A stretch of DNA of 64,000 nucleotides, from positions 2,640,001-2,704,000 of the forward strand of contig JALDRJ010000002.1 of assembly GCA_031315865.1 (NCBI GenBank), read 5' to 3'. The translations under genes and the position numbers were made by a program. Below, piece after piece: positions 5,802-14,504 of this stretch (position 1 is its first letter; every line of letters starts with the position of its first letter). This stretch comes from Nitrospirales bacterium. GTDB taxonomy: Bacteria; Nitrospirota; Nitrospiria; Nitrospirales; UBA8639. The notes under the pieces were generated by a model that worked only from the letters and a program-made list of their open reading frames with translations, was not told the origin of the DNA and made no database searches.

Positions 5802-6860
5802 ATGAAACCTGCATACGTGCTCTCGGGATTATTGGCCGGTCTTGTCTGTTTCTTCCTTCTCTACGTCGTGATCCTTCCGTATGCCGCGGATTCTCTCCCC
5901 TTTCACTCACCGATCTCTCAACTTGGCACGCACAAAGAGTACTCGCGATACGAGGAACCACCAGACCGCCCGCTAAAACTTATCTTTGCTGACGAGCCCT
6001 CACGGTTGTACGTTTCTCGTGCCGATGGAGTCATCGAGGAGTGGGATACGCAACATCGAGCTCAGACCAAGGCCTTTGAGACGAATAGTATCTTTTCGTA
6101 CATTGCATCACGTCATAGTCTGATCACGAAAACTCTTGGCGATAACGTGGAGATCCTTGATCTCACATCCCAAAAAATCACTCCGTTAGCCAGAGATTTC
6201 TATATTCACAGCGTGGTGGACCCGACCGGAGCGTTCCTGCTTTTGTCCACCGGTGGGAAGTCCCTGGAGATGTGGTCGCTGGAAAAGAATCAGTTGTCGC
6301 AAAGGTGGGAGTCCTACGATGCCGTGAGGAATGGAGTGGCGATCGCATTCGGAGGAGAATATGTGGCCGCGGCTGAAGGCACCTACGATTCGCTCGCCAA
6401 TTTTCATCATACGACCATTCAGTTATGGGAACGGGGGAACGCGCTTCCCCGGTTTTTATTCAACGGCGAACATGAGCAGGAAGTGCATGGGGTCTGGAGC
6501 ATTCTCTTTTCTCCGGACTCTTCGCTGCTTGCCGTGGACTCCCAGGTTGACCGGCAAGCCGGTGTCACGGTATGGGAAACCTCGACTGGGAAGCTGGTGT
6601 TTACGATTAGGGACTTGAAGGCTTCCTGGGTGCGGGCCCTCGCGTTTTCACCCGATGGCGACCATTTGGCCCTGGGAGATGAGTTGGGGAATCTCATGAT
6701 TTGGAACCTGGATTTCCAGAAGAAAGTGTGGCAGACCCAAGTCCCAGGACAAGCCATCCATTCTATTGCATTCTCACCGGATGGCCAATCGTTGGCCGCA
6801 GGCGTTCAGGATTCGACGGTTCAAATTTGGGGAATCGAACTCCCTTCTATCGTTAGGTAG
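5802..6860 (+). CDS. Membrane-anchored WD40-repeat protein
   Basis: A 352-residue protein with an N-terminal hydrophobic helix (residues ~5-30, GLLAGLVCFFLLYVVILPYA) followed by beta-propeller repeats. Typical blade ends are visible: VIEEWD, LEMWSLE, IQLWERG, VTVWETSTGK, LMIWNLD, VQIWGIE, and the inter-blade phrase 'AFSPDGD/Q'. About six or seven blades fit one propeller outside the cytoplasm. It lies 81 bases downstream of the TPR gene on the same strand, so the two scaffold proteins may be cotranscribed. No enzymatic domain is seen. Confidence 0.82.
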   Translation: MKPAYVLSGLLAGLVCFFLLYVVILPYAADSLPFHSPISQLGTHKEYSRYEEPPDRPLKLIFADEPSRLYVSRADGVIEEWDTQHRAQTKAFETNSIFSYIASRHSLITKTLGDNVEILDLTSQKITPLARDFYIHSVVDPTGAFLLLSTGGKSLEMWSLEKNQLSQRWESYDAVRNGVAIAFGGEYVAAAEGTYDSLANFHHTTIQLWERGNALPRFLFNGEHEQEVHGVWSILFSPDSSLLAVDSQVDRQAGVTVWETSTGKLVFTIRDLKASWVRALAFSPDGDHLALGDELGNLMIWNLDFQKKVWQTQVPGQAIHSIAFSPDGQSLAAGVQDSTVQIWGIELPSIVR

Positions 6861-7573
6861 TCCAGCAAGCATCGAACGAACCGTGGATAAGCTCAGACAT
6901 TCGTTGAAAGAGAATACGCTCCTCCAGTGTTGTAAAACGCAGAATGTCAGTTTCTGAACGTGGGCATGTCGAGGTGCAACGCCAATGTTCCTACCCTCGG
7001 TAACAAGCAGGGGGCACTCTTCTGAGGACATGGCCGTAAAAGTGTCGCTTCTCATCGCGAGAGAAGCAGGTATGAATAAGCCTGGCCTCGCTTCAAACGA
7101 TATTCGTCGTAGTGATACAGATCATGCCTGGGCTTTATCAACTGCATATAGCAGCCTCGACAGTTTACATGGTCCATGGTTCATCGTTCTCCATTCGGTT
7201 GGGATGCTGTACAGATTCAATTGACATTCTTAAAGCCGACGGGCGCGCTCTTTTTTTAGTCGTTCGCTGACGAACTTTTTTGTTAAACCTTCTTTCACTA
7301 AGTGGTTCTCAGCATCTTTAAGGCAGAGAACTTTCATCATCTTTTCAGGCCGTATAGATTTCCATGGCCAACACACGGTCATATGCAAATGCTTCGCTTG
7401 CTGGGGCTTTCGTCCTCACATATCTCGCGTGGAAATTTTCTTGGATGTGATTTCCTCGTGTGATACAGTCATAACCCTTCCGAGAAGCTCCCCCAAACAG
7501 GTTTGGAAACTCAAGGATGAATCTAGGCATGCGGGTTCCTTCGTAACGATAGATGTTTGAAGGATAAGCGATC
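6861..7573 (+). other. Intergenic stretch without a supported gene
   Basis: About 700 bases between the WD40 gene and the ECF sigma gene. Short open frames exist on both strands (for example 6985-7224 plus) but they have no ribosome site or recognisable protein pattern. The only structure seen is a small hairpin with a T-run at 7262-7281. The right part should contain the sigma-operon promoter; no convincing consensus was identified. Confidence 0.5.
7262..7281 (+). terminator. Possible rho-independent terminator
   Basis: GTTCG-CTGA-CGAAC (5-bp stem, 4-base loop, 7262-7275) followed by six T. It is short and ~400 bases after the WD40 stop, so it may equally end an unrecognised transcript. Confidence 0.35.
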
Positions 7574-8182
7574 GTGGCGGATCAGGATGTGCAGGTTGCA
7601 ACGAATTTCAGCGCTCAGGCTGGGCAATTAGCGAGTCTGATCGCCAGCATCGCGGGCGGCGATGAACAGGCGCTCGGGATCTTGTATGATCGCACCTCAT
7701 CTTACGTCTATGGTCTGATATTCAGAGTGTTGAACGATCCAGGGGCAGCTGAGGAAGTCACGTTGGATGTGTATATGCAGGTATGGCGTCTGGCGAAGCA
7801 ATTTGATGAGGTTCGTGGAGGGCCGATTGCGTGGCTTGGGGTGTTGGCGAGGAGCCGAGCGATCGATCGCCTTCGTTCGGGGCAAAAAGAGCGGGAAAAA
7901 CGTCAGCCCCTTGAGATCGTCGATGAAGTCCCATCGACACTCGCGAGCCCGGAAGAATCGAGCGCGTATAACGAACAATGCCGTGTTGTCCAGTCGGCGT
8001 TAGCCTCGTTGGTCCCCGAACAACGGCATGTGATCGAATTGGCCTATTTCGGAGGCCTGACGCACAGTGAAATTGCTGCCGAGATCAGAGTTCCGTTGGG
8101 TACCGTTAAAACCCGGGCTCGGTTAGGGATGATGAAACTTCGGAAAATTCTGAGCCCATTAGAAGAAGGCCTTGCCCCATGA
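7574..8182 (+). CDS. ECF RNA polymerase sigma factor
   Basis: A 202-residue sigma-70 family factor with GTG start. Region 2 spans ~38-105 (LYDRTSSYVYGLIFRVLNDPGAAEEV, VYMQVWRLA, GVLARSRAIDRLRS) and region 4 spans ~140-192 (LVPEQRHVIELAYFGGLTHSEIA, VPLGTVKTRARLGMMKLR, a helix-turn-helix). Regions 1 and 3 are absent, as in ECF/SigK-type factors. Its stop overlaps the start of a ChrR-like anti-sigma gene (ATGA at 8179-8182), so the regulator pair is translationally coupled. The regulon is unknown; ChrR-paired sigma factors in other bacteria answer singlet oxygen or related oxidative stress. Confidence 0.9.
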   Translation: MADQDVQVATNFSAQAGQLASLIASIAGGDEQALGILYDRTSSYVYGLIFRVLNDPGAAEEVTLDVYMQVWRLAKQFDEVRGGPIAWLGVLARSRAIDRLRSGQKEREKRQPLEIVDEVPSTLASPEESSAYNEQCRVVQSALASLVPEQRHVIELAYFGGLTHSEIAAEIRVPLGTVKTRARLGMMKLRKILSPLEEGLAP

Positions 8183-8808
8183 GCAATCAAGAACCCAATG
8201 ATCAGATCCTCGAACAGGCGGCGCTCTATGCGTTAGGCGCTCTTGAAGGTCAAGAGAAGGAAGCGTTTGAAAGGCTCGTGGCGGAGGGATGTGCCGTGTG
8301 TAAGGCCGTCAAGGATTTTCAGAATGTGGCCGGGTTGCTTGGCACTTCGGTCGCGCCCCAGGCGCCTCCGGCGTCGCTTCGTGCCAAATTGATGGAGTGC
8401 GTTGCGGCAGAGCGACAGTCAGAGTCTGAACCCGGAGAAATGATCGCGGAATCCTCTGAACAATCTAAAGGGGCAGGGTTTACCTTCGTTCGGGCGGAGG
8501 ATAGTCACTGGCGTGTCATCGGTCCTGGTATTCGTGTGAAGGTGCTATCTTTTGACAGGGCCCAAGGGCGAATGACGGCTCTTGCCCGTATGGACCCTCA
8601 CAGCGCTTTTCGACCTCACGAGCATCCCGGTCCCGAAGAATTTTATGTCTTGGAGGGCACATGTTTCATCGGAGGACAATGGCTTCAAGTCGGAGATTAT
8701 CATCGCGCAGATCCGGGCACGTGCCATCATGAAACTTCTACAGAAGAAGGGTGCCTTATGCTGACGATGTTCACGCCCAGTCAGGAAATGCTGCAAACCT
8801 TAGCCTAG
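8179..8808 (+). CDS. Anti-sigma factor with C-terminal cupin domain (ChrR-like)
   Basis: A 209-residue protein. The N-terminal anti-sigma helix bundle (~9-75) contains AALYALGALEGQEKEAF and a C38-A-V-C41 pair. The His that precedes the Cys pair in the classical zinc motif (H-x3-C-x2-C) is missing. The C-terminal cupin (~100-200) has the metal triad pattern H147-E-H149-PGP-E153 plus a later His at 183/184, matching the ChrR cupin metal ligands. It should bind and hold the adjacent sigma factor and release it on a redox or metal signal. It overlaps the sigma gene by 4 bases. Confidence 0.85.
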   Translation: MSNQEPNDQILEQAALYALGALEGQEKEAFERLVAEGCAVCKAVKDFQNVAGLLGTSVAPQAPPASLRAKLMECVAAERQSESEPGEMIAESSEQSKGAGFTFVRAEDSHWRVIGPGIRVKVLSFDRAQGRMTALARMDPHSAFRPHEHPGPEEFYVLEGTCFIGGQWLQVGDYHRADPGTCHHETSTEEGCLMLTMFTPSQEMLQTLA

Positions 8809-8969: not shown

Positions 8970-11075
8970 TTATTTTGAAGGATACTTGGTTGGAGTTTGT
9001 AGCCCATCAATCGCGCTTGCTCGTTTCTTTGTCTCTTTGACGATGCAGTCCCATTGGGCTGTCAGAGTTCGCGTTTCATCGGACTTTGCTTTTACAAAGC
9101 AATGTGCGATCGCATCGATGAACGGGAATCGATAGGATTTTCCGTTCACGCGCCCATAGCTTTTCTCATCGGAAGAAGATGATGCATACACGTGAAGATT
9201 CGGGTGTGTTGCGACAGCTGTTCTGTTCGCTGTGAGATTTTGCGCTGTGGATTCAAAAACACCGCTATAGCACGAATGATTGATGAGCGCGACTGGAATG
9301 CAAGATTTATCCATCTTTTTAAAAGTCTCAGCAATCATTTGAGTCAAGAAACCTGAGGAAAAGTTATTGTTCATTCCCTGGCCAGGTTTGCCAGCCTTCT
9401 TCACTGTTTTGTCCCTAGGCTTAACTTCGATCGTTTCGCTTTCTTTTGGAATGGGGGTCCAGCTCTTCACGTCTTTGGCTTTCTTAAATTTCAACATGCC
9501 ATCCTTGTTGGCGTGAGAGTTCACGATGATCAAAACTTCAGCGCAACAATCATCGATGGTTTTCAACCATGCCTCGAGTTTCGAGCGGAACATGGCGAAG
9601 CTCTTGGTCCAGGTCTTGGGGTCGATTTCAAATGTCTTCTTATCTGTGAGAAAATCTTTTGGATCGAGTTCTGTGATGTTGGCAGCGTTGATTCCTAATT
9701 TTTTGAGCAGTTTCTTTTCCTCGTTCTTCAATTCGATAAATCGTTTGTCAGTGTCATCAAATGTCAGGATAATGGCATATGTTTTGATCCTCTCTGGCGG
9801 ACAGTCTTTCAACGTAGATGAAAGGCCAATAATCGCTGGCCCGATTGAATCAATGTCCTCCGTAGTGGAATCCCCTTCATCATTATTTTCTGGAATATCC
9901 CCATTTCCGGCATTTTTGTCTTGAAAAGACGTTCCTGCGTTGAACATTCCATAATAGACATGATCATGACTGGCATAATCCAATGGATAGGGTCTGCCAT
10001 CGGCAAGGACGACCTCAGGTGCAAATTCTCGATTCTCGATGATTTGCATTTCTTCGGAATCGCTATTCATAAGAATCCACCGGGCATCGGATTGACCAAA
10101 AAATGCTTGGGGATCATAGGCGAAAAACAGCCACACGTTCTTTTGAGTAACCGTGGCAATGACTTCGCCGGTGATTGAATCATTAATTTGTGCCCCTATT
10201 GGCAATGGCCGGAATGGTCCGACTAATGCATATGGGTAGGAATATTTGTCGTTCATGGCCGCTTGGATCAGTTGGACCAGTGCTCGCCGGCGATTAAGTG
10301 ACGTAGGATCCGATATTTGAATGAGTATCGAACGGGTCGAGTGTGAGGCGGCAGTGAGCCTCGCGCCGTAGAATCCCAAGGGCAGATCATGCGGAAGCGA
10401 AAAGTCGGCCACGTTTTGGTCACCCCAAATGCCAGCTCCGATATCTTCATCGTACGTTCCTGAGACTTGCACGGTCTCTCCACTGTCAGCAGAAGTCAAG
10501 CTCATCAATACTTCTGGATTTGATATTTCTTTGGTGCCTTTCACGATTATACTGAGAGGTTCACCAGCTTGAAATCCTTCCGGAGCCTTAGGAGCCTTAT
10601 CATTGAGAGAGAGAACGACAAGCCAATCATCGTCCGTGGCATGTTTTGACAGAGAATCTACAGAAGGGACATAAAATGTACCACTATTGTTTATCTGTTC
10701 TGTTTGATTCGCTGAGGTTTGATCTCTCAGTGTTGAATTGAGCAAAGAAAGGGATTGAACGTTTTGAAACTTCATGGTCTGTTGGAGAATCTGGGATTGT
10801 TCTGGCGTCTTAAACGTAAATTCAAATTTTGGTTCCTGGCCAGCGACAGAAGCCTTATTCGTCGAATCGTTGATCCCTGTTAAAACTTGATTGCCCGATG
10901 AATTCGTCGGAAGCAGTTTTGGAACCATGTAAATATCGGTAACGTTAGCCTTATTGTCGAGGTCTATGAGAGGGGCCTCAAGGTGGTTTGAGGCTTGTCC
11001 AGTTTGGAGACTTCCCAGCGTGAGAGCTGCAAAGAACAAAGCAGACCGAAGGAATACAATGTTTTCTCGCTTCAT
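8970..11075 (-). CDS. Secreted protein with DUF4331-like N-terminus and caspase-like (C13/C14-type) domain
   Basis: A 701-residue protein with a signal peptide (MKRENIVFLRSALFFAALTLGSLQTGQA). The mature N-terminus reads SNHLEAPLIDLDNKANVTDIYM, very like the SSHREAPL...NTDVY start of DUF4331 proteins. The middle (~170-270) looks like a beta-rich domain. The C-terminal ~250 residues have two blocks of clan CD cysteine peptidases: a hydrophobic strand with His (VLIIVNSHANKDG, H521) and a second strand with Cys (VALINHSCYSGVF, C602), the classic His/Cys dyad of caspase/legumain folds. A Lys/Asp-rich segment separates them. Peptidase activity and any self-processing are inference. It is monocistronic and ends at a strong terminator. 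Confidence 0.68.
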   Translation of the reverse strand: MKRENIVFLRSALFFAALTLGSLQTGQASNHLEAPLIDLDNKANVTDIYMVPKLLPTNSSGNQVLTGINDSTNKASVAGQEPKFEFTFKTPEQSQILQQTMKFQNVQSLSLLNSTLRDQTSANQTEQINNSGTFYVPSVDSLSKHATDDDWLVVLSLNDKAPKAPEGFQAGEPLSIIVKGTKEISNPEVLMSLTSADSGETVQVSGTYDEDIGAGIWGDQNVADFSLPHDLPLGFYGARLTAASHSTRSILIQISDPTSLNRRRALVQLIQAAMNDKYSYPYALVGPFRPLPIGAQINDSITGEVIATVTQKNVWLFFAYDPQAFFGQSDARWILMNSDSEEMQIIENREFAPEVVLADGRPYPLDYASHDHVYYGMFNAGTSFQDKNAGNGDIPENNDEGDSTTEDIDSIGPAIIGLSSTLKDCPPERIKTYAIILTFDDTDKRFIELKNEEKKLLKKLGINAANITELDPKDFLTDKKTFEIDPKTWTKSFAMFRSKLEAWLKTIDDCCAEVLIIVNSHANKDGMLKFKKAKDVKSWTPIPKESETIEVKPRDKTVKKAGKPGQGMNNNFSSGFLTQMIAETFKKMDKSCIPVALINHSCYSGVFESTAQNLTANRTAVATHPNLHVYASSSSDEKSYGRVNGKSYRFPFIDAIAHCFVKAKSDETRTLTAQWDCIVKETKKRASAIDGLQTPTKYPSK

Positions 11076-11473
11076 GATGACCTCCTTGTCAGAATCATTA
11101 CTAGAACATCTTCATTTCAATTGAGTGTCGCTTGCATTACGAGTCTCCTGGAAGTTTTGGATTTCTTTGAGCTGAGATCAGCAATTCCAAGCTCCCTAGG
11201 TCCAAAAAACTGACAGAGCATGTTGCTGAATCGTGACTGTAAAGACGATGGGAAGGGGCAAGGGAAGGGGGAGCAAAGAATCGTATTTATTGATAACGGC
11301 AAGAAGGCGTGGGCTCAGAAATATTCCACTTGTTCCTTGTCGGGGACGACTATGTAGATTCGTTATAAGGTTCTTTCCAGAAAAACCGATGGGAAGGGAG
11401 ACGTTTGAGTTGGCTTTTGTGGGAAAGTTGAAATCAAGACGGGTGCGGAAGCTGAGAGGATATTGTATGGGGA
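11076..11473. other. Intergenic stretch, no gene seen
   Basis: About 400 bases between the caspase-like gene (reading left) and the end of the ligase-like gene. It must hold the promoter of the caspase-like gene; the ribosome site AAGGAGGT lies just upstream of its ATG. Purine-rich runs around 11245-11280 stand out, but no hairpin, RNA gene or coding frame is supported. Confidence 0.45.
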
Positions 11474-12424
11474 TTAGATATGTTGTGTGCCAAAGTACTG
11501 CTTGGCAAAGTTGAGCCGATCCTCCAGGGTCGTGAGACGTTCAGCCTGCTCTTCAACCATGTGTAGCCGAGGCAAGAGTCCCGCACGATTGGCAATTTGA
11601 ATGTTTAACCCGGGGCGTGCGTTGAGTTCCAGGATTAACGGTCCCTGAACTTTGTCCAGGACCAGATCAACGCCTTGGTACCCTAGGCCCGTGAGTTCAT
11701 AGCATTGAGCGGCTTCCCGTAACAAAATGTCCCAATGCGGGATTTGTAAGCCTGTGATGGGTTGTTCGGTATCCGGATGTTCATGAACGATCTCATTCTT
11801 CCACACTCCACTCAATGTCTGGCCCGTACTTAAGTCAATGCCTGCCCCGATGGCACCCTGATGGAGGTTCGCCTTCCCATCCGACATTCGCGTCGGCAGA
11901 CGCACCATAGCCATGACCGGAACTCCTAAAAAGACGATGATGCGAACGTCCGGTATGCCCTGAAAACTAATGCTCTCGAAAATCGGATCAAACTTCACCC
12001 GGTATTCAATCAAAGCCTTGTCCTGATGCCCTCCGAGACTATACAGGCCGCTCAAGATGTTTGACACGTGATGATCAAGATCTTCCTGTGTCATGAATTG
12101 ACCACTGGCTTTCCGGTACCGGTTGCCGCGTCGCCCTGTGATGACGATGATGCCGTCGCCTCCACTGCCTTCCGCTGGTTTGATGACGAAATCCTGGTAC
12201 GGTTTCAGTAATTCCGACAGACCTCTGACCTGCCGTTCTATTTGGATCACGCCGTACAACTTTGGGACGGCGAGTCCGGCCTCTTCAGCCAAACGTTTAG
12301 TCGTGAGTTTGTCATCCACGAGCGGATACAAATGCCGAGGATTGTGCCAGAGGGTATACCCGGCGTTCCGGTGATTTAACCCTAAGACGCCTCGTTCTGT
12401 TAAAATTTTCGCCAGCCCAAACAT
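11474..12424 (-). CDS. Alpha-L-glutamate ligase-like ATP-grasp protein
   Basis: A 316-residue ATP-grasp protein of the RimK-related type found beside 7TM 'inactive transglutaminase' genes. Visible are the start MFGLAKILTERGVLGLNHRN, the ATP-binding strand FVIKPAEGSGGDGIIVI (~90-106) with glycine loop, and the metal/ATP site LILELNARPGLNIQIAN near the C-terminus. It should join an amino acid (glutamate in the family name) to a carboxylate of an unknown target in the cytoplasm. An AGGAGG site precedes the ATG by 10 bases. It is the last gene of the retropepsin-7TM-ligase operon, 19 bases after the 7TM gene. Confidence 0.85.
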   Translation of the reverse strand: MFGLAKILTERGVLGLNHRNAGYTLWHNPRHLYPLVDDKLTTKRLAEEAGLAVPKLYGVIQIERQVRGLSELLKPYQDFVIKPAEGSGGDGIIVITGRRGNRYRKASGQFMTQEDLDHHVSNILSGLYSLGGHQDKALIEYRVKFDPIFESISFQGIPDVRIIVFLGVPVMAMVRLPTRMSDGKANLHQGAIGAGIDLSTGQTLSGVWKNEIVHEHPDTEQPITGLQIPHWDILLREAAQCYELTGLGYQGVDLVLDKVQGPLILELNARPGLNIQIANRAGLLPRLHMVEEQAERLTTLEDRLNFAKQYFGTQHI

Positions 12425-12443
12425 GACGGTTTATCCTCCTGAC

Positions 12444-13964
12444 CTACTGGGCTAAGGCCTTGAAGCGACGTAATTCCAGCAGTCTGAACCCTGTGTATCG
12501 TCCCATGAGTAGGGTGCCGGCGAGGAAGAGCAAGAGCAATTCTGGAAACACAAACAACAAGTGTTCCATGTAGGGGATGGTCATGGCGATATACGTGAGC
12601 GAGGCAACGGCTAAACTGCCAAGCCCCTGTTGAATCGATTCGAGCGCACCCCGTTCTTCCCAGACGATGCACATGCGCTCGATGGTCATCGTCAGAATGA
12701 CCATCGGGAAGAGTGCGACGGATAGTCCACGTTCTAACCCGAGCTTGTGGCTGATCACGCTGAGTGCCGCCATGAGAAGGATGACGATGATCAACAGGGA
12801 AGCCAGGCGAGGGACCAGCAACAGTTTGAGATGTTCCAAATAAAAACGAACGGCCAATCCTAACGCGACCACCAGTGAAAACAAGACGATGCCCCATACC
12901 AATTGCGTTTCGCGAAAGGCAAGCGCCATCAGGATTGGCATGAAGGTTCCAAATGTTTTAATGCCTATCACATTTCGGAGAATGAGCAGTAACAGGGCAC
13001 CCATTGGAACCATCAACAAAATACGGTAGACGGCCTGTGCTTCAAGGGGTAGGCTGAATAAGGAAAATTCCAATAAATGAGGGGTCGCCAACTGCGTATG
13101 GTACATGGCGGCCCGAATGGCTTCTTCCTGGTTCGGAGCAATCGTGATTGTTATGGAAAAATGATCGCCGCCTTCGATTTGTGTCAACGGTTGTGTCCCG
13201 TGCCACCAGGTGAAGTAATGGCTGGGTATGTCGGGTCTGCCGGTTTCAGGATCGTGGAACTGCCATTCACCTTTATCGTAAATTTGTAGCCAGTGGATGA
13301 TGACGGCTTCTCGTTGAAACCCTTTCAGTTGAACCCCATGCACCACACGATTGGGGATGAGTGCGAACGACAGGATGTCGGAGGCCATCTGGAGCTTTTT
13401 TTCTTGGGAACGGTCATTTCCCAGCAGCAGTTGAAGATTTGGATCGCCATTGGGGTGTTTGAGTCGTGAGAAAAGTTCGGCGATGAAGGTGGACGTGTCG
13501 GCGGACTTTTCTTTGATATCTGCGACAAAGGCTTGAACTGCGGTGAGCTGCGCACCTTCGAAATACGGCGGAAGGACTTGAGGGGATTCATTGTCTGTGT
13601 GTGGACTATCCACATCCACGCGACGGACGGTGGCCCGATAATACAGGTGCTGTTTCCCGTTCGCGTTGCGGATTGACCAGGTTGCCCGTCGATTGTCTTC
13701 GTCCTTGACGGTCGTTAAGCCGTACCCTTGCGAGATGAAATTTTCATCGACGATGGCATATCGCCGGGTGTTACGTGGCAAGGCCAATGAGACTTTGACG
13801 GGTTTGTCTTTGGCGAAGAACGTCAGATGCGCTTCGACGATCCACAGTTCAACTTGCGTTTGAGGGGTTAATGGGAAGTGCAGGACGAAAACTTTGAAGA
13901 AAAACAGGCCGAGACCCACGGACACCAAACAGAGAACGAGGATATACAGATGACGCTTGTTCAA
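12444..13964 (-). CDS. Inactive transglutaminase domain fused to seven transmembrane helices
   Basis: A 506-residue inner-membrane protein with apparent TTG start. An N-terminal anchor (ILVLCLVSVGLGLFFFKVFVL) is followed by a ~250-residue extracytoplasmic transglutaminase-like domain (residues ~150-300, with VVHGVQLKGFQREAVIIHWLQIYDKGEWQFHDP-type strands but no clear Cys nucleophile). Seven C-terminal helices follow from ~310 to 495. This architecture is known from conserved operons containing a retropepsin and an ATP-grasp ligase, as here on both sides. It plausibly senses a periplasmic ligand and signals to the ligase or protease. The gaps to its neighbours are 19 and 6 bases. Confidence 0.85.
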   Translation of the reverse strand: MNKRHLYILVLCLVSVGLGLFFFKVFVLHFPLTPQTQVELWIVEAHLTFFAKDKPVKVSLALPRNTRRYAIVDENFISQGYGLTTVKDEDNRRATWSIRNANGKQHLYYRATVRRVDVDSPHTDNESPQVLPPYFEGAQLTAVQAFVADIKEKSADTSTFIAELFSRLKHPNGDPNLQLLLGNDRSQEKKLQMASDILSFALIPNRVVHGVQLKGFQREAVIIHWLQIYDKGEWQFHDPETGRPDIPSHYFTWWHGTQPLTQIEGGDHFSITITIAPNQEEAIRAAMYHTQLATPHLLEFSLFSLPLEAQAVYRILLMVPMGALLLLILRNVIGIKTFGTFMPILMALAFRETQLVWGIVLFSLVVALGLAVRFYLEHLKLLLVPRLASLLIIVILLMAALSVISHKLGLERGLSVALFPMVILTMTIERMCIVWEERGALESIQQGLGSLAVASLTYIAMTIPYMEHLLFVFPELLLLFLAGTLLMGRYTGFRLLELRRFKALAQ

Positions 13965-13970
13965 GGAAAT

Positions 13971-14504
13971 CTATTTATCCGAACAGTTGGGTTCGTGTTT
14001 ATAGGTTTGCGCGGAATCGACCACGGCCTGATGTTTTAAGAAACTACGACCGATCAACATGTTGTACGTAAAGTTTTTCCGGTCTGTCAGGTTCACGAGT
14101 GCTTTTCGTTGGAAGATGTTCCCTAAACACAGGTCGAATTCGACGACGGGACGACGTTGAGGCTTCGCGCCTTTTCGCTTGATCTTGACGTAACGATGAA
14201 TCGGTTTCTCAAGGGTCATGCTTTGTCCTTCTTTTGTCGTGACGGTGAACGTGACCCAACGTTCCGACTTTCGAACAATCTCCGAGACATCCGAGACATT
14301 GAGCGAGGATGTATCGGCCCCGGTGTCGATTTTCGCATGAAGCAAGATGTTTTCCGGGAGAATTTGGACTTTTTCCACCCAACCCACGACGAGTTTTGGA
14401 CTGTGATCGATGACTAATTCACCGTACGCATCGAGAGGGAGGCTCCAGACGGTCATCCACATCACAAATCCAACAACAAGGGAATAGGGTAAGGCGAATG
14501 TCAT
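13971..14504 (-). CDS. Retropepsin-like aspartic protease (often annotated ATP-dependent zinc protease)
   Basis: A 177-residue protein with an N-terminal signal or anchor (LVVGFVMWMTVWSLPLDAYG), so probably periplasmic. The active-site motif IDTGADTSSL (D60-T-G) and the C-terminal NMLIGRSFL strand are the two hallmarks of the retropepsin/COG4067 family; these enzymes work as dimers with one Asp per subunit. It is the first gene of the three-gene operon with the 7TM and ATP-grasp genes. Homologous operons in proteobacteria have been linked to osmotic tolerance, which fits the neighbourhood but is not shown here. Confidence 0.86.
   Translation of the reverse strand: MTFALPYSLVVGFVMWMTVWSLPLDAYGELVIDHSPKLVVGWVEKVQILPENILLHAKIDTGADTSSLNVSDVSEIVRKSERWVTFTVTTKEGQSMTLEKPIHRYVKIKRKGAKPQRRPVVEFDLCLGNIFQRKALVNLTDRKNFTYNMLIGRSFLKHQAVVDSAQTYKHEPNCSDK

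Follow-up and report, generated by a model that had tools for sequence, protein, structure and literature searches.

The window analyzed here is a 64,000-nt stretch of a Nitrospirales genome in which the genes for an ECF sigma factor and a ChrR-type anti-sigma factor face a gene for a protein with a caspase-like C-terminal domain (Table 1). The window genome is labelled G000, related genomes carry labels such as G001 and G042, and loci fetched from relatives are given as L followed by a number. The caspase-like gene was open over 701 codons without interruption, which confirms as real an ORF that an earlier note on this DNA had reported without naming the minus strand on which it lies. In the translation, SNHLEAP occupies residues 29-35, NSHANKDG residues 519-526 and INHSCYSG residues 598-605, and H521 and C602 fall where the earlier note had placed them.

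Table 1. Features of the caspase-like gene and the adjoining sigma/ChrR operon (positions are those of the window).
Feature	Position	Strand	Basis or description
Sigma-70-like promoter TTGGAT-N17-TACAGT before the sigma/ChrR operon	7441..7469	+	Pattern reading
ECF sigma factor	7574..8182	+	Pfam Sigma70_r2 and r4; NCBIfam SigK-like, below cut-off
ChrR-type anti-sigma factor, C-terminal cupin	8179..8808	+	Pfam Cupin_7 'ChrR Cupin-like domain', E 3.5e-23
Caspase-like gene, 701-aa ORF (P0001)	8970..11075	-	Exported-type protein with C-terminal caspase-like domain
Caspase-like (clan CD) domain, residues 413-701	8973..9839	-	AF2, VIA-align, Foldseek, hhalign
C602, candidate catalytic Cys, end of predicted strand 4	9270..9272	-	Alignment, AF2, hhalign
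H521, candidate catalytic His, end of predicted strand 3	9513..9515	-	Alignment, AF2, hhalign
Conserved middle region, residues 169-412	9840..10571	-	Ortholog alignment; strands, one helix, strands
DUF4331-like mature N-terminus (SNHLEAPLIDLDNKANVTDIYM...), residues 29-54	10914..10991	-	hhalign
Signal peptide, residues 1-28	10992..11075	-	Site between GQA and S judged by eye; AF2 helix 5-18
ATCCAA-N15-CGTAA, RpoE-ChrR-type element 5' of the caspase-like gene	11137..11162	-	Pattern and conservation

Orthologs of the caspase-like protein were identified at approximately 52% identity, and a Shine-Dalgarno-like AAGGAGGT directly 5' of the start was conserved in them. Comparison of the G042 and G028 copies gave a dN/dS of approximately 0.17 for the C-terminal domain (dN 0.080, dS 0.475) and 0.25 for the middle region (dN 0.117, dS 0.474); the N-terminal part diverged faster (dN 0.247, dS 0.621). 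The orthologs, the low dN/dS and the conserved AAGGAGGT thus indicate a real gene, which is under purifying selection where it is intact. Its GC content (0.452) was below that of the window (0.517) and of its neighbours, which would fit a gene acquired recently or weakly constrained. By eye, the protein begins with a Sec signal peptide-like stretch followed by ASNHLEAP, and the export signal proposed in the earlier note therefore holds up as a prediction.

To assign the protein to a family, Pfam, NCBIfam, PHROG and PADLOC were searched, and none yielded a family above cut-off; the sole Pfam row was DUF7863 (E 0.15), under its cut-off. Peptidase_C14 (PF00656) gave no Pfam match at E <= 1 for the window protein and none at E <= 10 for four ortholog sequences or pieces (P0002-P0005) that span the domain wholly or in part. 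Peptidase_C13 (PF01650) matched neither the window protein nor anything else in the window genome, which has five Peptidase_C14 matches. A PDB sequence search had no significant match, whether run with the whole protein, with the C-domain profile or with the middle-region profile. Reading the gene as a defence gene was rejected with PADLOC unmatched, and reading it as a mobile gene was rejected with no plasmid, phage or viral-contig relative.

Structure prediction of the full-length protein with AF2 gave a model that was poor overall (mean pLDDT 45.7), with mostly low pLDDT in the middle region. Its C-terminal third was built as strand-helix-strand-helix-strand(His)-helix-strand(Cys)-helix-strand-helix. 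The domain folded alone, from only 5 sequences, reached a moderate confidence (pLDDT 66.9, pTM 0.76), with the His at domain residue 109 in strand 100-110 and the Cys at residue 190, the end of strand 183-190. When this model was compared with known structures using VIA-align, 50 of 50 among the matches listed were clan CD by title (Z 15.2 to 13.8). The full model gave the same count among the matches listed (Z 13.6-11.6), which included caspases, GPI transamidase, legumains and SAVED-CHAT. Foldseek returned four matches for the domain at E <= 0.001, all caspase or legumain (best E 1.1e-4), and no match at this threshold for the full model. By fold, the domain model scored Z 14.0 against C13 and 15.2 against C14 in VIA-align, a difference that does not separate the two families.

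As a check independent of AF2, the domain profile was aligned by hhalign with 29 Peptidase_C14 domains from related genomes. This analysis revealed a score of 43.7 (probability 84.7) with His placed on His and Cys on Cys, compared with 19.4 for the best of 60 column shuffles, 18.3 for the reversed profile and 16.3 for the same profile against DUF4331. In the ortholog alignment, the His and the Cys were each conserved in 4/4 covering rows. The dyad His is followed by Ala in the window protein and by Gly in the orthologs, and two residues before the Cys there is a His in place of the Asp usual in the local C14 set. Taken together, the predicted fold, the alignment to C14 and the conserved His and Cys support assignment of the C-terminal domain to clan CD (caspase/legumain). 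The earlier note's caspase-like domain was borne out by the caspase order of the predicted structure and its clan CD matches (AF2, VIA-align, Foldseek). That note would have given the domain up had the dyad residues lain away from neighbouring strands or varied among homologs; both lie at strand ends in the model and both are conserved. Because the domain fails the C14 cut-off, we leave it outside Pfam C14 and regard it as an unassigned family of clan CD.

The N-terminus was examined with a profile of four orthologous N-termini, aligned by hhalign with ten DUF4331 proteins of relatives. The local score was 46.8 (E 6.4e-7 as a single comparison) over 24 columns, and the best of 100 column shuffles reached 18.9. 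The mature N-terminal motif shared with DUF4331 was (S)(N)HxEAP...D..A..TD.YA. Pfam DUF4331 (PF14224) gave no match at E <= 1 for the window protein and none at E <= 10 for the orthologs scanned. As the likeness stops at about 24 columns and Pfam DUF4331 is unmatched, the caspase-like domain is not joined to a DUF4331 domain here, and fusion with a complete DUF4331 domain was rejected. Of the description "DUF4331-like protein" in the earlier note, the first ~24 mature residues stand and the rest of the domain does not.

We also examined the arrangement of the locus in related genomes. The caspase-like gene had been described as downstream of an ECF/ChrR pair; as an operon this was rejected, since the sigma/ChrR genes lie on the plus strand and converge with the caspase-like gene on the minus strand. 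The same convergent arrangement was identified in G042 and G011, and beside a 3' fragment in G028. In relatives, G011 included, a DUF4331-TPR-HupE-like operon (TPR and HupE-like named by eye) runs divergently from this sigma/ChrR pair. This operon was absent at this locus in the window genome, with flanks matching those of its siblings by eye (ATP-grasp, transglutaminase-like and Zn_protease at one end, WD40 at the opposite end). The only DUF4331 relative in the window genome, a diverged one, lies elsewhere (G000:C2:1761522-1762478). Seven relatives (G001-G004, G026, G055 and G061) had the sigma/ChrR/DUF4331 locus and no full-length caspase-like gene.

Further features of the neighbourhood were recorded. 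Genes of the ATP-grasp, inactive transglutaminase/7TM and ATP-dependent Zn protease-like types cluster at window positions 11474-14504; the cluster is conserved, and similar genes lie beside the siblings' sigma/ChrR locus. In G011, an exported M14-type carboxypeptidase gene (Pfam M14) directly precedes the caspase-like gene, and a similar gene was found in G042 (L018:6109-7437; L015:467-1795); the window has no such gene at this place. ChrR-type anti-sigma factors carry a zinc motif, H-x3-C-x2-C. This motif was without its His in 11/11 copies (the window and 10 relatives), with the cupin His/Glu motif kept, and was without the Cys pair as well in G001, G055 and G061.

A shared promoter element was first noticed by eye in the upstream regions and then tested by pattern and conservation, using a strict pattern (ATCCRA-N15-CGTAA) and a looser layout (ATCC-N17-CGTA); an exact bipartite word search of the upstream regions found no shared word. 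The strict pattern matched once within the window, at the caspase-like gene, and 0 times in 100 shuffles. The looser layout was present 83-99 nt before the start in 4/4 caspase-like genes, which amount to about three independent observations because G042 and G028 are close relatives. When the four upstream regions were aligned, both boxes and the Shine-Dalgarno region were among the best conserved stretches. An ATCC-CGTA element with N16 or N17 was identified in 7/8 DUF4331-side operon regions, a count for which the G003 region was scanned to 5860 and a G003 site stands at 5865. The sigma/ChrR operon had a sigma-70-like promoter and no RpoE-type one in the window and three relatives (4/4 ortholog loci, by eye). 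Separately, an ATCC-CGTA element was present on the sigma side in G001, G026, G002 and G004.

Genome-wide, the strict pattern was not enriched over a reversed control (4 vs 3 in G000), and 3/4 strict sites in G000 lay inside long ORFs. The loose pattern had 45 matches on both strands of 274 kb of fetched loci, a count that includes the sites themselves, and is expected now and then by chance. Given the lack of genome-wide enrichment, the promoter argument draws on position and conservation, not on number. The RpoE-ChrR consensus in the literature is TGATCC-N16-CGTA (PMC5507510; PMC4336711). From its sequence, the element before the caspase-like gene appears to be of this type, which favours the "stress-induced" label of the earlier note; the operon layout assumed there does not hold.

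Distribution of the gene was narrow. Matches were found in 5/97 related genomes, namely the window genome itself, G042, G028, G011 and, weakly, G004. In a 395-genome draw of the phylum the C-domain profile found two, the window genome and G011, and the middle-region profile found the same two. A search of genome contigs with the single protein as query gave no match; a profile search gave four contigs, from Nitrospira sp. HKST-UBA08, Nitrospirales bacterium RBC_NOB5 and, twice, Nitrospiria bacterium Co_bin.365, taken as the same genomes as G042, G011 and G028. The G011 copy has two frame breaks in the deposited sequence and Arg for the Gly of CYSG. G004, of the same genus, retains a 73-residue C-terminal remnant on two near-identical contigs (L019:255-470; L020:5520-5747). 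The frameshifted G011 copy and the G004 remnant indicate that the gene is dispensable, and the distribution is best read as a gene restricted to few Nitrospirales and apparently decaying in some.

The ORF, its conservation, the predicted fold and dyad, the promoter element and the synteny were all computed here. From these we infer, with a probability of about two in three, a Sec-exported clan CD cysteine peptidase that is switched on by the neighbouring RpoE-like sigma factor under a ChrR-released stress response and cleaves an envelope or extracellular protein. ChrR would release the RpoE-like ECF sigma factor under oxidative or singlet-oxygen-type stress, and the released factor would drive transcription of the caspase-like gene. 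We propose that the peptidase would thus be a stress product, cutting its envelope or extracellular target. H521 would polarise C602 for its attack on the peptide bond, the two residues lying where strands 3 and 4, respectively, end. The ~390 mature residues before the domain (the DUF4331-like start, a fast-changing linker and the conserved middle region) may act as a prodomain or targeting part.

The Ala after the His and the His for Asp near the Cys would suit a catalytically dead caspase fold, that is, an exported binding or structural protein keeping fold and residues, and an earlier survey lists many Nitrospirae caspase homologs without the dyad (57% intact; PMC3501461). However, the His and Cys were kept in every covering ortholog although about half of the other residues differ from the window protein, and pseudo-forms described in the literature replace the dyad (Tyr/Ser; PMC6426788), which makes a dead fold unlikely. 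The conserved sigma/ChrR neighbourhood, and caspase and ECF sigma genes reported as neighbours elsewhere (PMC8195603), would also be expected if a regulatory protease cleaved ChrR or another factor to free sigma, upstream of the regulon, like the caspase-sigma couplings in defence systems. This we consider very improbable: the signal peptide-like start would carry the protein out of the cytoplasm, to a place where one would not expect ChrR; its promoter element marks the gene as a target; and the seven relatives named above have the sigma/ChrR/DUF4331 locus with no full-length caspase-like gene.

The origin of the N-terminus was weighed in the same way. The DUF4331-like start might have no relation to DUF4331 and reflect convergence or an N-terminus of a kind general among exported proteins, as the 24-column span and the unmatched Pfam DUF4331 would allow. 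This reading is made somewhat unlikely by the hhalign score (46.8, with 18.9 for the best of 100 shuffles) and by G011, where a full DUF4331 gene flanks the sigma factor opposite the caspase-like gene. A scenario of about the same probability starts from the neighbouring DUF4331 gene, whose 5' part, comprising the promoter element, the signal peptide and ~24 mature residues, would have been taken over by the caspase-like domain. The domain would thereby have joined the RpoE-ChrR stress regulon and, in the window genome, supplanted the DUF4331 operon as what that sigma factor mainly, or perhaps solely, produces. If true, the protein would be an exported caspase homolog released by stress.

Bacterial caspase homologs are common, and to our knowledge most have no known trigger. 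For the peptidase proposed here, induction, export and cleavage are directly testable, because a candidate regulator and a promoter element have been defined and the genomes concerned, natural losses among them, form a bounded set. DUF4331, which was not found in the literature searched, nor in any paper there joining it to a sigma factor, gains a regulatory context. A search for ChrR, sigma factor and Nitrospira found nothing related in that literature, judged by title.

Compared with known systems, the protein most resembles bacterial orthocaspases and metacaspase-like proteins (MEROPS C14B; PF00656) in its fold, in a His-Cys dyad at strand ends and in a profile match with the dyad aligned, and by analogy may work like an orthocaspase. 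It differs from them in falling below Pfam detection, in having HSC and not DxC, in an insert rich in Lys that separates strand 3 from the following helix, and in two further parts, the DUF4331-like start and the middle region without a match. Legumain/asparaginyl endopeptidase (C13) was matched alike by Foldseek and VIA-align (6azt, Z 14.0), with Pfam C13 unmatched. Secreted caspase homologs as such are already known, an N-terminal signal or TM helix preceding the caspase domain in 46 sequences of the earlier survey (PMC3501461). With DUF4331 (PF14224) the protein shares the mature N-terminus, predicted secretion and, in relatives, the locus and promoter type, but beyond the first ~24 residues the domain is absent or unrecognisable. 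The RpoE-ChrR regulon of Rhodobacter, Shewanella and Pseudomonas has the same pairing of an ECF sigma factor with a ChrR cupin anti-sigma factor and the same ATCC/CGTA layout of promoter boxes; here, in contrast, the spacer after ATCC is N17, one longer than the published N16, the sigma operon has a sigma-70-like promoter, and the anti-sigma zinc motif is without its His.
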